A stretch of DNA of 64,000 bases from a bacterium (GTDB lineage: Bacteria; UBP14; UBA6098; 4484-93). The DNA lies in the NCBI GenBank assembly GCA_021158465.1, contig JAGGUN010000028.1, forward strand, positions 62,001-126,000, in the 5' to 3' direction. Under the pieces are notes generated by a model. The model was not told where the DNA came from and ran no database searches. It was given only the letters and a program-made list of their open reading frames with translations. The position numbers and the translations under genes were made by a program. Numbering within the stretch: position 1 is the stretch's first letter; each line of letters begins with the position of its first letter. Of this stretch, positions 30,206 to 46,272 are shown piece by piece.

Positions 30206-33200
30206 TTATCTCAAAAGCAGCATCTTCTTTGCCTCGCTATATTCACCTGCTGTGAGCTTATAAAGATAGAGTCCTGACGGGAGAACCGTTCCCTGCTCGT
30301 CTTTCCCGTCCCAAAGGAGGGAATTTGTGCCTCCAGCTGGAAGCTCAAACTGCTTTATCTTCTCTCCAAGGAGGTTAAATATCTCCAAGGTTGCTCGGTC
30401 CATCCCTTCGGGTATGGAAACCGTTATTCTTGTTTCCGGGTTGAACGGATTGGGATAGTTTTGGGAAAGATAGAATCTATCGGGATGCCGATTGCTCTCA
30501 ACTCGAGCGAAGACATAGACAGAGAGCTCTATTGTTACAGTCGTTGTGTAATCGTCGGGATCAGCGGTTATACAGAGCTCGAGCTGGATAGTTGTATCCT
30601 GAGGGACCACGCCCGTAGAGAGGGAGAACGGTGAAGAATCATTTGCCACAGTAAAGCCTGGACTAATGGTGCCGTAGAAGGCGTTTGCACGGTCAACGGT
30701 CACAAAATCAGCTGTCGATGATAGGGTTGCATTGACCATATATGCCCTGGCCCCACCACCGTTTTTGAGAGAGACGACTAATCCAAAATCCTCGTTTTGG
30801 TCCACGAACCCGTTACCGTTTCCGCCTGGTGGTGGATCACTAACTGCAAGTCCAACAGGGTAAATCCAGGGTGACGGGGAAAGCTCCTCCGGGGGATATG
30901 TCGTGAACTTTATCGCCCTTCCATCTATGAGTGGCTCGGCATTCTCAGCGTATGAATTGTGGTAGAGATACTGGATCCCGATAGTCTCCGTGTGGTCTTC
31001 GATCCCAACAGCGTTGCTTGAGGCGTTATCGATGTCTTGATACTGGAAAACTATCTCTCCATCTCCTGTTGGTGTGGGGTAATACCCGGGGTCATACAGA
31101 ATAACCTCGAATGTTTCACGGTTGTAAGGGTAGCCGTAATGCGCTGCCTCTTTATACTCAATAATAAAGCGGTGGTTTGCCTCGTCGGTATATTGATAGA
31201 CATCACCGTATCCAGAGGAGGTGCGTAAGTCCAGGTCGTCCCAGAACGGTGCAACTATTCTTTTTGCCTCGCCCAGATGCGGAATATTATGCTCATGTAT
31301 CCCACTACCACCAGACCAGGTCTCGGTGCCGAGCGCCAGGAACCCGTTCGTGCAAACAGAGATATTCTCATAATCGATCCCGTAATACTTGAATGTGAAC
31401 GGGAGTGGGATAGTTGTTATATCGTCATCTCTGTCAGTTATGGCAGATATTGCAGAGCCTGTCGAGCTTATCTCAACCCAAGAGTACGAGGGAGCATGCC
31501 CTGTGAGCGTATCGGTATCGTCATAGCAGTAGTATCCGTACGAGTCAGGACCGACCGGCAGATTATACTCCGAGCCACCACAGGGCAGGTATCCTGTTAA
31601 TGTATCGATATACGGGTAGGTGCCGCCGTTACCAAAAACGAATAGGGTATAGGGAAGGGAATCTGGTAGTATCTCCTCTGGGTTAATCGATGTTGCGAAC
31701 GGGTTGTGGTCGTTTGAGACCGTTTCGTTGGTGTCAACAGGAGGGAAGCTTGCCACAGAGTCAACGACAAATGCGTATTCCTCGGGTAGTCTCAATTTGA
31801 GCGTACCTCCATCGAGCGCTCCCTGTCCATCGTTGTGGATAGCAAATGATATTTGGGGTGTTTCGCCTGTCCAGACAAGTCCATCCCCGTTGCCATGCGG
31901 TGGAGCATCATCCACATAAGAGAATACAACAGAAATCCTCGCCGCTGCAACAGTGAGGTTCGGGCTTGCTGCCTCCCAGGTATGGAGCAGGTTATCATGC
32001 GTCGTGACAGTGAAATGCAGCACCTGGAAGCTTGTGCAGGCAGATGATACCTCGAACTCAAACGGCACCTCAGATGTTACCTCCCCACCGTAAGGTATCC
32101 TGTCGAGGTAGACCGAGTCGACATTGATTGTGACAAACTCCGAGTCATCGGTTGTAAGGCGTGCCCAGACACCGTTCGCCTGCTCCGAACCATAGTTCTT
32201 GACAATAATGTAAAGCTCAACCCTCTCGCCAGGGTTCAGCATACCGTCACCGTTTCCACCGGAGGAGTCATCGAGGATACAATCATAGTAGATTGCATAG
32301 GGTCCCTCTGTGCCAGGCGAGGCAAACCCCTCGTATTTCAGGTAATTCGGTTTGGTGACGGTTATATTCAGTGTGTCAAAATTGACAATATCGAGCGACA
32401 GGTTGACAGAGCCATCCGCACCCGTGTATCCTGTCTCATAGACCGTCGAGTCCATATAGCAGCAGACGAGAGCACCGGAGACAGGGGAACCTGCCGATGT
32501 TACGGAGACGGGAAAATCTATATGCCCCATACCGACAATAGGTGGATGGGAAACATCCAGTTCCTGCGGCGTATCCGTCCACATACACAGCTCCGGATCA
32601 CCCAGGATGTTGTAAGAATAGTACTCCTTGCGGGTATAACCGTTCACTCCCATATTGTCGAACATATAGTTCTTACCCTCAACCATGCATACCCCCAGCC
32701 GATGGATGTCGTCATCGCAGAGCGCAACATAGAACCCGCGGTGCAATGCAGAGCGCTCATGGACATTGCTCGATATCTCTGTTGAGCCGTAAAAGGCAAC
32801 AGCTCCGGATAGATTGCCACCGTTGTGAGCCCTCGTCCAAGTCTCACAGACATGATCATCATCGGCGTAATCACCTGTTCCACAGGTGACAGAGAGTATT
32901 ACAGGCATCATAGCACCGTTTGTCGCAGCATCGGGGTTCATACCCCCGAACGGTGGCCACCAGTCGACAACAGACTGCCCCCTGAAGTTCATAAATGTTA
33001 TACCCCAGTTGACATCACGGAAGACATCATCGGCATCGTCACCACCATCCATGTGGTAGTAGCTGACGGTATCATAACCGATAGATAGCAGTTTATCTTT
33101 TATAAACATCAAGGTGTTGTAATAGCTGGTATCATCCTCATCGTGGTCCTCTCTCATAAAGTTCGTTGCCCTCTTGAACCAGTCAGGGTCAGACATCGGA

Positions 33201-34267
33201 GGCTCGGTTTCATAGATTATCTGCTTGGTGGTAACAACCAAGGCGTCGGTAGAATTGTCGCAGGACAGCCTGCCAACAAAGATATCCGCGACATCGTCAT
33301 CACCTTCGAGTGTTGCATAGTAGTTGTCGGTAGCCCAGTAAGAGACATTCCCCGTTGGGACGCCATCGACATCACCAACAAAGACGACATATTCCGGCGG
33401 AATATCCCAGGAGTCATAGGCATCCTGTATGTAGGATTTTATCGATGATGAGCTTGTTCCCGTCTCGCTTGTCGTTACAAGCTTTGGATACAATCCTTTC
33501 TTAAACTTCCACTGGTAGAGCGATTCGGCATAGGTCGAGTATGTCGGCGCAGTTATTATAAGGTATTTGCCACCGGAGTAAGCTCCCGTCTTCGTTTGTC
33601 TTGATACTGGCTTGGGCATATAGTCGTAGTTGATAACGATGTTCCTTACCATCCGCTCATAATCTTCCCCTGGCAAAAGCCGTGAGTTCCAGTCGGGATT
33701 GGGAGATATACTGCGAACCTTCACGCGGAAGACGGTTGCTATCTCCACAGTATGCTTTGCCGGATTGTACCTTACAGGCGTGAGCCTGACACCGAGGACA
33801 CGCAGACCGCGCATAACAGCGATGTCGGAGACTTCTGCTATATTATCTGGGAAGAAGCTATCGGTCGAATAGAGCTCGGTGTCCATTAGAAAATCCTTCG
33901 GCTCGGTGAATCCGGTTTCTCTATTCTGAAACGGGACAACATCAACACCACAGAGAGTTTCTGTCTTTATCGGGGTCGCAGTAACCTCATATCTTGCAGC
34001 CTCTGGAACTCCAACCCTCACAATCCGATGAGGTAAAGCAGGCTTTCCCTCCTCCGTCAAAAAGCCCATATCGGGAACAACGAGCTTTACCCAGTTCCCG
34101 CTGAAGAACTCCGTCTTCTCGAGATTGTATTCGCCTATCCTTACCTGAAATTCCACCCTCTGGATATCAGAGTGCAGAAGACGGACATCTATATTCTCTC
34201 CGATATAGGAAGCAAACCCAATCCCAGCAAATACAAGGGAAAATAGGATAACAAAAAACCACCGCAT
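30206..34267 (-). CDS. Secreted gingipain-like (C25 family) protein with large beta-rich C-terminal region and T9SS/FlgD-like tail
   Basis: Signal peptide; YLIITAPTYSTYAESLYQWKFKKGLYPKLVTT, VGDVDGVP, VGRLSCDN, VTCGTGDY; C-terminal LSQNYPNPFNPETRITVSIP...LPSGLYLYKLTAGEYSEAKKMLLLR. Confidence 0.88.
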   Translation of the reverse strand: MRWFFVILFSLVFAGIGFASYIGENIDVRLLHSDIQRVEFQVRIGEYNLEKTEFFSGNWVKLVVPDMGFLTEEGKPALPHRIVRVGVPEAARYEVTATPIKTETLCGVDVVPFQNRETGFTEPKDFLMDTELYSTDSFFPDNIAEVSDIAVMRGLRVLGVRLTPVRYNPAKHTVEIATVFRVKVRSISPNPDWNSRLLPGEDYERMVRNIVINYDYMPKPVSRQTKTGAYSGGKYLIITAPTYSTYAESLYQWKFKKGLYPKLVTTSETGTSSSSIKSYIQDAYDSWDIPPEYVVFVGDVDGVPTGNVSYWATDNYYATLEGDDDVADIFVGRLSCDNSTDALVVTTKQIIYETEPPMSDPDWFKRATNFMREDHDEDDTSYYNTLMFIKDKLLSIGYDTVSYYHMDGGDDADDVFRDVNWGITFMNFRGQSVVDWWPPFGGMNPDAATNGAMMPVILSVTCGTGDYADDDHVCETWTRAHNGGNLSGAVAFYGSTEISSNVHERSALHRGFYVALCDDDIHRLGVCMVEGKNYMFDNMGVNGYTRKEYYSYNILGDPELCMWTDTPQELDVSHPPIVGMGHIDFPVSVTSAGSPVSGALVCCYMDSTVYETGYTGADGSVNLSLDIVNFDTLNITVTKPNYLKYEGFASPGTEGPYAIYYDCILDDSSGGNGDGMLNPGERVELYIIVKNYGSEQANGVWARLTTDDSEFVTINVDSVYLDRIPYGGEVTSEVPFEFEVSSACTSFQVLHFTVTTHDNLLHTWEAASPNLTVAAARISVVFSYVDDAPPHGNGDGLVWTGETPQISFAIHNDGQGALDGGTLKLRLPEEYAFVVDSVASFPPVDTNETVSNDHNPFATSINPEEILPDSLPYTLFVFGNGGTYPYIDTLTGYLPCGGSEYNLPVGPDSYGYYCYDDTDTLTGHAPSYSWVEISSTGSAISAITDRDDDITTIPLPFTFKYYGIDYENISVCTNGFLALGTETWSGGSGIHEHNIPHLGEAKRIVAPFWDDLDLRTSSGYGDVYQYTDEANHRFIIEYKEAAHYGYPYNRETFEVILYDPGYYPTPTGDGEIVFQYQDIDNASSNAVGIEDHTETIGIQYLYHNSYAENAEPLIDGRAIKFTTYPPEELSPSPWIYPVGLAVSDPPPGGNGNGFVDQNEDFGLVVSLKNGGGARAYMVNATLSSTADFVTVDRANAFYGTISPGFTVANDSSPFSLSTGVVPQDTTIQLELCITADPDDYTTTVTIELSVYVFARVESNRHPDRFYLSQNYPNPFNPETRITVSIPEGMDRATLEIFNLLGEKIKQFELPAGGTNSLLWDGKDEQGTVLPSGLYLYKLTAGEYSEAKKMLLLR

Positions 34268-40692: not shown

Positions 40693-42075
40693 TTACCAGT
40701 CAAGGGGAAAGCGGCTGGCTCCTTTTGGGGTTCCAAACCACAGATATCTCCCTTCTCGGGTTATTACCTCAACATCGTTCGAGATAAGCCCCTCTTCGGT
40801 TGTTAGCATCTTCGTGTCAAAACCTTTTCTGTCGTAGAGGGCAACCCCACCGGATGTGGCAAAAAAGAAGAACCTGTCGACCGGTTCAAAGTCCCTTATT
40901 TTTCTGCCGCTGAAGACGAGAACCCCAGGGAAGATAGTTGGCTCACCAGCGAACGAAGGGACAGCAACTATTCCCTTCCTCGACAGGAGAAAGAGGGTAT
41001 CAGCCGATACCTTCGCTGAGATAACGGGGGCATCGAGTGTTCCATCGTCCTTGGTATACTGGAGAAAGCCGCTATCGTTCCAGGTAAACACCCCATAATC
41101 TGTGGCAAACCACAATGTGCTGTCGAAGTATGCGACATCGTTGACCCTCGGAAAATCCGCCCGACGCAGCAGATCCAAGCTCACTCCACCTGAGGAATAA
41201 ACAGCGATCCCGTCCGTCGTGCCTGCCCACAGTGTATCCTTCCCAAGTGCAAGCGATGTCAGCGCCACAGTCGGTCTGCAGGCTTTAAACCTACCCCTGC
41301 GAATATCAAGGAGAGCAAGCCCAAACTCGGTGGCAAAAAAGACCGTATCTCCTGCAATAAGAGCATCCTCCACACGGTCCGCCGGGAAAGAAGGGATATC
41401 CTCTGCCCGGAAGATATCCCAAGCATCCCTCTCCTTCTCCCAGACGGTTATCCCCCCGTTACCTGCAAAGAGTACGTAATCATCGGAGACACAGATATTG
41501 TCCACCACCGGGGATGCAAGTCCAAAGGGGAGTATATCGAGAAGGTTGCCACCACTTCTCACGCGCAACAACCCCTTCCCCCAGGTGCCGAGGAACTTAT
41601 TTCCTACGAAGTCTGTGAGACAAGCTGTCACAGGGTATTCATGAAGATGCATATCAGACAGGACACCATCGGGGCGGAAGAAGTAGCCCGTTGGTGGAAT
41701 ATACCCAGGGAAGCTCTCGGGGCAGTCATCCGATGTAGAATCGAAAGGCGACGACACAGGGAAGCTATAAGTCCCAGTGCTCGTCTCGACCTTTAGCCTG
41801 TTGCCCGAGACATAAAGCTCCTTTACAGGAGAGTTTATTATCCCACCAACCGCCACGTCGAGGTAATCATACGGGAAGAGGAACCGCTCATCGACCTTAT
41901 CGTAGCGGACAAGCCCTCCTGTCGTGCCAACATATATAAAACGGCTTCCCTCCGCAAGAGAGGTAACAAAGCGATAATCAGACACGCTTATTATCCCTGT
42001 GGCAGTCCAGTCGGATGTAGCCACGGAAGGTAGAGAGAGAACGCCAAACAAAAGGATAGAAAACAGAGCCTTCAT
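40693..42075 (-). CDS. Exported beta-propeller repeat protein (two-component-regulator-propeller-like)
   Basis: Signal peptide; repeated units such as LALGKDTLWAGTTDGIAVYSSGG, VAYFDSTLWFATDYGVFTWNDSG, EGRYLWFGTPKGASRFPLDW. Confidence 0.75.
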   Translation of the reverse strand: MKALFSILLFGVLSLPSVATSDWTATGIISVSDYRFVTSLAEGSRFIYVGTTGGLVRYDKVDERFLFPYDYLDVAVGGIINSPVKELYVSGNRLKVETSTGTYSFPVSSPFDSTSDDCPESFPGYIPPTGYFFRPDGVLSDMHLHEYPVTACLTDFVGNKFLGTWGKGLLRVRSGGNLLDILPFGLASPVVDNICVSDDYVLFAGNGGITVWEKERDAWDIFRAEDIPSFPADRVEDALIAGDTVFFATEFGLALLDIRRGRFKACRPTVALTSLALGKDTLWAGTTDGIAVYSSGGVSLDLLRRADFPRVNDVAYFDSTLWFATDYGVFTWNDSGFLQYTKDDGTLDAPVISAKVSADTLFLLSRKGIVAVPSFAGEPTIFPGVLVFSGRKIRDFEPVDRFFFFATSGGVALYDRKGFDTKMLTTEEGLISNDVEVITREGRYLWFGTPKGASRFPLDW

Positions 42076-43947: not shown

Positions 43948-46272
43948 TTACAAAAGGTAGCTCAGCTCGAGCGAAAAAGCTGACCTTTTCGCTCTGTGGT
44001 TTACTACATTTCCGTTTATCTCACCGAAAAAGCCTTCTGTATCGTGGACATATCTAAACCTGACATACGAGCTTGCCGAGAGCCTCTGCGTGAGCGAGAC
44101 CCAGAACCTGAACGATCCGTCGTCGCTGTCAAGAACAACAAACTCACCATCCTCGAAGTTCCATAAGAACCCTTTATACATTCCGAGCGATGTAGCAAGC
44201 TCACTCTCCCCCTGTATCCCTTGTCGCCAGGTAAGAAAGATAGAACTGCTTCTCTCTATCGAGCCACCGTAGAGGGGAGTAGTTCCATCTGGGAGATGCC
44301 AGTAGTACGGCTTCGGGGGGTAATCCATCCGCCCTCGTGTCAAGAGGAGGGAGAGCTCAGTCTGCTTCGTCAGGGAAAGCACGGTGAAAAACCTTGTTTC
44401 TCTATCCTCGAAACCGTTCGAAACGATAAACTCGTCGGGGTTCCTTCCTGACAGCTTCTGCCTGACATTTATCTTCAGTCTCCTCGTCGGCTGATAGGTG
44501 CCGGAAACCACGACTCTCGAATACAAGGCGTTGTCCGCTCGGCGACACCAGTTATCGAATTCGCTCTTCAGATACAACCTTCCCGTGACCCTTGCCCGAG
44601 CAGAGAGATAAATCCCCCTCTCCGGCTGGGGGGTCACGCTATTGTAAGCAAGATACGAATACAGTGGACTTCTCAGATAATACTCCTTCCCAAGTATCGT
44701 CCCATGAAACCGCTCGTAGTTTGCAAACCCCCTGCTGTAGGGATTAAAGTATGAGGGGTCGCAATCCCGATACAGCAGAAGGATATCTGCTTTGTTGAAC
44801 TGGGAGTAAAACGAGACGACAAAAGCATCCGAGACCTCATCCGCATGCAGGGCTCTCGAGTATTCGCCTCCTACGGTATAGTTCCCGAAAATCACCCTCC
44901 CATCGAGTCCGGCAAATCTGTACATCTTATCCTTTGTGGGGGAGGAAATGGTATAATCGTTGTCAACTGTGGAGACCTTATCCCCTCTGTCGGTGATAGA
45001 GCTCAGATCGGGGACAATCTCCTTGGAGTAGTTTGCTTGCCAGAAAGATGCCCCGAGAAGCAAGCTACCCGAGATAAAATGCGAGATATGCCCACCAACA
45101 AGTCTCTCCTTTATCCCGTCCTTCAATATCACCCCATCAGAAGAGGAGAGGAGAGAATCAGGGATATAGTCGGGCAGTTCCAGCACAGCTGCCACCGTAT
45201 CGGGACTGGTAGGAATTACATCCTCCTTCTTGCTGGAGAAGAATATTATACCATCGGTATTATCGCCCACGAGGAACTCTACTCCCGCACCGAAAAGTCC
45301 CCTTTCATCCGTCGAGTAGATGTCAGAGAACACCCCCGTGTACCTCTTATCATATCCAAACCCAGTGAGCCTCGGCTTGAAGTATCCGCCTGACTGAAAG
45401 CATATTCCCTCACCCCATCCTGCGTTGTAATTACCAAGTATCAACCTTTTCAGGCGAACTACTCCGACCGCCTGTCCCTCGAGGGCAGAAAAGAACTTGA
45501 GTTTTTGGTCGTTGGGGTGAAGCCCGTTTCTCCACCCGTTCTGGGAAAGAAGCATTCCGCCGGAAAAGCCGAACCGTGGTCCTCTTATGTACGCCTTCAG
45601 ATATTCGGATTCCACAGCACCGGTGAGGAAATCCTCATCGGGGGAAAGCTCCGGGTGATACATCCCCATCTCGATGGAGCCTGTGGCAAGCCGACCCTTT
45701 TCCTCTTTGAAAGAGACAAAATCCCGCAGACCAAGATAGCTGTAGAAGGTTAGTCCTGGTATGCGGCGTAGTTCCCTGATATCCGATATCTCACCAATCA
45801 GTTGCTTATACAAAACTATCCGCCTCGCATCCTGCGGAGAAACACCCCTAAAACCCAGAAGGTCGAAGAATGAGAGCCTGTTCAGGTTAACAGGATTCTT
45901 CACCATATCGAGCCAGAGCTCGTAACAACCTCCCTCCTCATCCTCATGGGCAAGCTTCCTATAAAAATCCCCAACTCTCAGGGAAACAGCCAATGTGGTG
46001 TCAGGATAGAGAACGATGAGGGGTTTCAGTGTATCGAGCTTCGCTGGAGAAACAACCTCCGTCAGCTCGTAGATACTCTTTATTCCTCCCCTTCCGCGGA
46101 CGAGATTGTAGACAGCCACCGCTTCGTCCTTGGTTATCGGTAGACTGCTTATCTCCTCCAGCGTAGCCCGATTTATGTCAAGCGGGGCAGAAAGTATAGG
46201 TGGCACCCAGAGAAACAGGAAAGTTATAAATACAAATCTTCTCAGTTTCACTCCTTTCTTGTAAACATCCAA
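43948..46272 (-). CDS. Predicted outer-membrane beta-barrel protein with N-terminal helix-hairpin-helix (ComEA/HHH_3-like) motifs
   Basis: Signal peptide; PLDINRATLEEISSLPITKDEAVAVYNLVRGRGGIKSIYEL, NPVNLNRLSFFDLLGFRGVSPQDARRIVLYKQLIGEISDIRELRRIPGL; C-terminal about 500 aa of amphipathic beta pattern ending in ELSYLL. Confidence 0.82.
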   Translation of the reverse strand: MDVYKKGVKLRRFVFITFLFLWVPPILSAPLDINRATLEEISSLPITKDEAVAVYNLVRGRGGIKSIYELTEVVSPAKLDTLKPLIVLYPDTTLAVSLRVGDFYRKLAHEDEEGGCYELWLDMVKNPVNLNRLSFFDLLGFRGVSPQDARRIVLYKQLIGEISDIRELRRIPGLTFYSYLGLRDFVSFKEEKGRLATGSIEMGMYHPELSPDEDFLTGAVESEYLKAYIRGPRFGFSGGMLLSQNGWRNGLHPNDQKLKFFSALEGQAVGVVRLKRLILGNYNAGWGEGICFQSGGYFKPRLTGFGYDKRYTGVFSDIYSTDERGLFGAGVEFLVGDNTDGIIFFSSKKEDVIPTSPDTVAAVLELPDYIPDSLLSSSDGVILKDGIKERLVGGHISHFISGSLLLGASFWQANYSKEIVPDLSSITDRGDKVSTVDNDYTISSPTKDKMYRFAGLDGRVIFGNYTVGGEYSRALHADEVSDAFVVSFYSQFNKADILLLYRDCDPSYFNPYSRGFANYERFHGTILGKEYYLRSPLYSYLAYNSVTPQPERGIYLSARARVTGRLYLKSEFDNWCRRADNALYSRVVVSGTYQPTRRLKINVRQKLSGRNPDEFIVSNGFEDRETRFFTVLSLTKQTELSLLLTRGRMDYPPKPYYWHLPDGTTPLYGGSIERSSSIFLTWRQGIQGESELATSLGMYKGFLWNFEDGEFVVLDSDDGSFRFWVSLTQRLSASSYVRFRYVHDTEGFFGEINGNVVNHRAKRSAFSLELSYLL

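Follow-up and report, generated by a model that had tools for sequence, protein, structure and literature searches.

A predicted outer-membrane beta-barrel with tandem ComEA-like helix-hairpin-helix domains and a possible part in extracellular-DNA handling

Does a protein that joins helix-hairpin-helix (HhH) domains to an outer-membrane (OM) beta-barrel act on DNA? The question is raised by a gene at 43948..46272 on the (-) strand of the window, the whole 64,000-nucleotide stretch of bacterial DNA analysed here. A preliminary description had read its product as DNA-binding HhH units fused to a barrel. The gene call (774 aa from TTG 46272) was based on the ORF list, 248 relatives and dN/dS. GTG 46251 or CTG 46245 is a likelier start than TTG 46272, because the signal peptide then ends ...PILSA|PLDIN. 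This signal peptide (46186..46251, (-) strand; start codon uncertain) was judged by eye from basic residues, the core FVFITFLFLWV and the end ILSA|PLDIN. In the congener (G001) the signal peptide region is MDKRRVKKLIFIVVFLFLWILPIFSA, and the G001 sequence compared for the choice of start codon is MDKRRVKKLIFIVVFLFLWILPIFSAPVDIN. Residues are numbered here from CTG 46245 (protein P0001, 765 aa). The dN/dS value relative to the congener was 0.17 (112 codons), so purifying selection on the gene looks likely. The ORF, Pfam, the family profile and AlphaFold2 (AF2) together bore out the described order of signal peptide, two HhH units and barrel.

A pattern scan of named genomes with the single protein gave no relatives; an alignment scan then gave 248 of a long form, which has two HHH_3 domains and ~800-880 aa. 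The best 80 of these 248 represent about nine phyla by record titles, which are not checked classifications; the titles include Zixibacteria, Eisenbacteria, Calditrichota, Neomarinimicrobiota, Latescibacterota, KSB1, Gemmatimonadota, Krumholzibacteriia and Fibrobacter, among others. The class around G077, which we call Bacteroidota-like because SprA is present in 114/119 genomes, has a short form (one HHH_3 domain, ~600-750 aa), matched at E <1e-30 in 98 of the 119 genomes sampled. Similar proteins in Bacteroidota, mentioned in the preliminary description, do therefore exist in genomes of this kind. The other 21 of the 119 had no strong barrel match, and 19 of those 21 keep ComEC. The HhH-barrel family is FCB-wide, and both the family and its predicted architecture are solid; no description of the protein was found in the open-licence literature. 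The window genome also encodes a short paralogue of 531 aa with one HhH (G000:C36, L003 / L122 9368-10960), near which lies a 487-aa propeller-like ORF (L122 14046-15506), as well as a separate ComEA (L123) and ComEC (C48).

The barrel was assigned to 43951..45684 ((-) strand) by AF2, Foldseek and strand-face analysis. AF2 was run with family profile A3, a 64-member alignment also used for structure matching, and the model (mean pLDDT 81.7, pTM 0.80) has helices at residues 22-176 and ~24 beta strands at 188-764. Foldseek matched it to large OM barrels (FimD/PapC, MtrB, SlpA, TonB receptors), all at low TM-scores of ~0.2-0.37 by query length, indicating a large predicted OM barrel with no close solved relative. 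The protein has both a signal peptide (by eye) and the long run of amphipathic strands expected of an OM barrel. In strand number and in resemblance to large OM barrels, structure prediction is consistent with a barrel as described earlier; with TM by query at <=0.37 a closed barrel is putative. Lumen faces were assigned by alternating hydrophobicity, which makes the assignment a guess from sequence. The inferred lumen face carries conserved Arg/Lys in the family, with a median of 27 basic and 18 acidic residues (median net +9), and R493, R568, R577, R595, R601, R721 and K250 are near-invariant. In the window protein it is nearly neutral (25 basic, 24 acidic). The basic face suggests an anionic substrate for the family only.

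Gene neighbourhoods were compared in 80 relatives with flanks (the best 80 of the 248 long-form relatives), the denominators being loci with enough flank. A PorV/PorQ-like barrel gene lay directly upstream in at least 54 of 70 loci, a lower bound. A FadL/BamG-like barrel gene lay directly downstream in 70/76, and an UshA-like 5'-nucleotidase gene was present within 5 kb in 50/64. The upstream partner scored 76.7 bits against the PorV/PorQ-family model (cutoff 90). Exported proteins encoded upstream in relatives had LTD, DUF5689, OB-fold and ExeM/NucH-like segments and FlgD_ig/Por_Secre_tail tails of the type IX secretion system (T9SS) type. EEP nuclease genes occurred in some loci; the operon LTD/OB proteins scanned gave no match to an EEP domain. 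In one locus (L062:11818-13776) the N-terminal domain of an UshA-like nucleotidase is fused to an EEP nuclease domain, which replaces the C-terminal domain normally found in the nucleotidase.

Shewanella ExeM, an extracellular nuclease, combines LTD, OB-like and EEP parts; most of its activity is lost when the OB-like part is deleted (PMC6085458). ExeM/NucH DNases and DNA-degradation loci resemble the present operon in bringing together LTD and OB domains, EEP nuclease and 5'-nucleotidase genes; they differ in that the available parts of the two papers mention no HhH-barrel (PMC6085458, PMC8289736). This synteny, which recurs across many phyla, supports a probable link between the HhH-barrel and extracellular DNA.

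The whole operon is present in a family (f4) of the window genome's own class. Three own-class operons (L141, L143, L146) have two extra CAP/SCP-like genes, identified by eye (~208-314 aa), after the FadL-like barrel gene; this pair precedes the 5'-nucleotidase gene where that gene is seen. Operon genes of the ExeM type (LTD/OB, nuclease, nucleotidase) are present in most relatives and absent beside the window gene. Neither the window gene nor the congener copy lies in the operon; each sits between genes for glycosyltransferase and DUF4139. The window gene is flanked on one side by glycosyltransferases, DUF1844, recF and dnaN, and its other flank has DUF4139, a TPR protein and a PorZ-like propeller; the congener has the same upstream gene order, judged by gene lengths. 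The propeller gene (40693-42075, (-) strand, 460 aa), downstream of the HhH-barrel gene, gave a weak match to the PorZ N-terminal beta-propeller (E 0.0012). PorV-like and LTD genes of the window genome are located elsewhere, and the operon is dispersed in this genus. The same genome (G000) gave 27 PorV/PorQ-like profile matches, many in frames of ~930-1000 aa: an enlarged set of such barrels or of barrel fusions.

In a few lineages the barrel gene is linked to comEC. In one Bacteroidota-like family (f65) the barrel gene abuts comEC in 3/4 sampled members (G077, G328 and G402; loci L120, L158 and L177), with overlaps or gaps of a few bases, and in two of these three a PorV-like gene stands ahead of the pair. 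G368, also of f65, has comEC and lacks the barrel. In G223 (L121), genes for LTD, PorV-like, barrel, FadL-like, FAH hydrolase and ComEC follow in a row on one strand. Barrel and comEC are apart elsewhere among the 119 class genomes, so the linkage reflects about two independent events and is phylogenetically narrow. The correlation with ComEC and PilQ proposed in the preliminary description was run and gave no signal either way: at the thresholds used, 267 of 290 genomes had ComEC and 259 had PilQ-profile secretins, and both are too nearly universal for presence or absence to be informative.

A parallel exists in R. anatipestifer, where a transposon screen revealed essential transformation proteins without homology to known machinery; transformation there needs a DUF5689 protein, a CarboxypepD_reg barrel and an HhH protein, all three (PMC8459023). 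These proteins (RA0C_RS02645/RS04915/RS04920) are like the present system in that an HhH protein, a beta-barrel and a DUF5689 protein jointly serve DNA uptake (PMC8459023). The difference, by description only, is that HhH and barrel are separate proteins, RS02645 being predicted periplasmic with its HhH at 236-301. Identity of the HhH-barrel with RA0C_RS02645 is not supported; by that description, not by sequence, RS02645 resembles separate HhH proteins of ~300 aa. DNA export and anchoring of extracellular DNA, suggested in the preliminary description alongside uptake, gained no specific support.

The PorV-like neighbour brings in an alternative, that the HhH-barrel and its partner work as one unit which exports LTD/OB-fold proteins to the surface or anchors them there, and which passes no DNA. 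The partner lies directly upstream in long and short forms alike, the neighbouring proteins bear FlgD_ig/Por_Secre_tail tails, and PorP-like proteins (SprF/PorP, type B cargo) are known to anchor their T9SS cargo (PMC9143113). We consider this alternative unlikely, however, because the barrel is kept in all four non-reduced SprA-less genomes (G077, G321, G361 and G347, the last a draft in which SprA could be missed). The ~24-strand barrel with its tandem HhH is also unlike the 14-strand PorV/PorP. No PorV-like gene adjoins the barrel in G077, G321 or G361; this would count against the alternative as well, yet it is uninformative because several SprA-positive genomes have none either. The likeness to PorV/PorQ and PorP/SprF thus belongs to the upstream partner gene, whereas the HhH-barrel is larger and is unmatched by those models. 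Its retention without the SprA translocon indicates that it is separable from type IX secretion and rules it out as a T9SS component. The window itself encodes a 1353-aa C25 gingipain-like peptidase (30206-34267, (-) strand) with a propeptide and a FlgD_ig/Por_Secre_tail-type C-terminus, which suggests that the genome encodes a type IX-like export route.

A second alternative is that the protein is a nutritional porin only, admitting nucleotides, nucleosides and short oligonucleotides from digested extracellular DNA, with no role in transformation. The operon's 5'-nucleotidase (50/64), EEP nuclease and ExeM-like proteins and the conserved basic lumen face inferred for the family are consistent with it. 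It is nevertheless improbable, since most short-form contexts keep the barrel with no adjoining nuclease or nucleotidase gene, comEC adjoins it in one family, and the tandem HhH module would be left unexplained.

The HhH module consists of HhH domain #1 (residues 22-80 of P0001; 46006..46182), an acidic helical linker recognised by structure prediction and charge count (45895..46005), and HhH domain #2 (45706..45894), all on the (-) strand. Domain #2 was placed by Pfam and residue mapping; it has a GVSPQDA hairpin and Asp at the ComEA K164 position. Pfam found one HHH_3 domain in the window protein (37.1 bits, cutoff 27; residues 126-186 of the 774-aa frame). Against solved structures, the A3 profile matched ComEA (8dss, 8dfk, 2duy) over HhH #1 and human EEPD1 (9yi2; E 3.9e-17) over both domains. 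Modelled alone, the HhH part had pLDDT 85.6 with each domain at high confidence, and its best fold match was ComEA 8dss_B (rmsd 1.8 Å over 63 columns). The first hairpin of HhH #1 is one residue short and has no GhG. In the congener (L144, C1) an 18-aa in-frame gap takes out this hairpin; an assembly effect is possible because a contig end truncates the gene.

ComEA and the HhH-barrel share HHH_3 domains, the same fold and a presumed periplasmic location. The HhH-barrel differs in having two HHH_3 copies, degenerate GhG, Asp for K164 and a fused barrel of ~580 residues, and it scores 26.7 bits against the full-length ComEA model TIGR01259 (comE; cutoff 152.35). EEPD1 is similar in its tandem HhH along its length and its GVT/GLS hairpins, which indicate that such hairpin changes occur in other tandem-HhH proteins. 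EEPD1 has an EEP nuclease, however, where the HhH-barrel has its barrel; the bacteria considered here have EEP, at most, as a gene of its own in the operon.

The DNA-contact lysines tested in B. subtilis ComEA are K164, K193, K197 and K199; the K164 alanine mutant lowers transformation by >2 logs, and K199 is the other strong residue (PMC9747964). In HhH #2 of the family, K164 is replaced by Asp (98%), K193 by an aromatic residue and K197 by Asn (88%), and the K199 position is kept as Arg (86%); three of the four lysines are thus lost. In HhH #1 the K164 position is basic in none, K193 is basic in 5%, K197 is basic in 45%, and K199 is Lys/Arg in 98%. The GhG glycines are mostly replaced across the family, and in 94% of members the first hairpin of HhH #2 has Ser in place of its third Gly. 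Net charge of the N-terminal HhH region is -8 as the family median and -1 in the window protein, whose HhH #2 is +4. A comparison with canonical HhH domains in the loci, whose net charge is about -2 to +5, carries little weight because the regex gave only ~8 genuine domains. Lysine mapping is a better test, yet it is not clean because the window genome's separate ComEA also has no Lys at the K164 position (it has Leu). We read these data to mean that the family has lost most of the DNA-binding mode of ComEA; judged by its residues, the HhH part is a worn-down relative of the ComEA DNA-uptake domain. The label "DNA-binding" is accordingly poorly supported, and the DNA-related role proposed earlier finds its support in the gene neighbourhood of relatives and not in the HhH contact residues. 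That the HhH module still binds DNA through backbone contacts and retained Arg/Lys, so that a barrel-tethered, ComEA-like ratchet pulls dsDNA into the periplasm, would fit the ComEA fold match, the EEPD1 hairpins, the charge of window HhH #2 and the basic K199 position, but is very doubtful given Asp for K164, an acidic region, the hairpin missing in the congener and a separate ComEA in the window genome.

Our main reading, to which we give a probability of roughly 0.45, is that the HhH-barrel is an OM beta-barrel with a periplasmic tandem HhH and belongs to an FCB-wide module that handles extracellular DNA. It is based on the PorV-like/FadL-like/5'-nucleotidase synteny, the comEC abutment, the f4 operon, the basic lumen of the family and the R. 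anatipestifer parallel (PMC8459023). In such a module, DNA would be captured or cut by exported LTD/OB-fold (ExeM/NucH-like) proteins that the PorV-like barrel retains at the surface. The large barrel would let in DNA or oligonucleotides through its basic lumen, and the HhH module at its periplasmic mouth would not itself grip DNA but would dock a partner (ComEA, ComEC or a nuclease/nucleotidase). Uptake would feed transformation in comEC-linked lineages and nucleotide salvage in those with 5'-nucleotidase and EEP nuclease. The window copy would act with partners encoded elsewhere. Several findings count against this reading: the window and congener genes are outside the operon, the HhH contacts are mostly lost, the window lumen is near neutral, the comEC linkage is narrow, 19 ComEC-keeping class genomes have no strong barrel match, and the HhH protein of the R. 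anatipestifer screen looks like the separate ~300-aa type and not like the HhH-barrel.

A bolder version, which we hold only tentatively and judge to be rather unlikely, is that in Bacteroidota, and in the FCB group at large, the HhH-barrel serves natural transformation as a pilus-independent OM DNA channel, its ComEA-derived module being repurposed as a periplasmic dock to the ComEC pathway. As a conserved barrel with a ComEA-derived domain, which most of the sampled genomes of the Bacteroidota-like class possess and which is syntenic with extracellular-DNA genes across many phyla, it is a candidate for the step by which DNA crosses the OM in transformable Bacteroidota, or for DNA scavenging; the HhH-barrel may help some bacteria to bring DNA or its fragments across the outer membrane.
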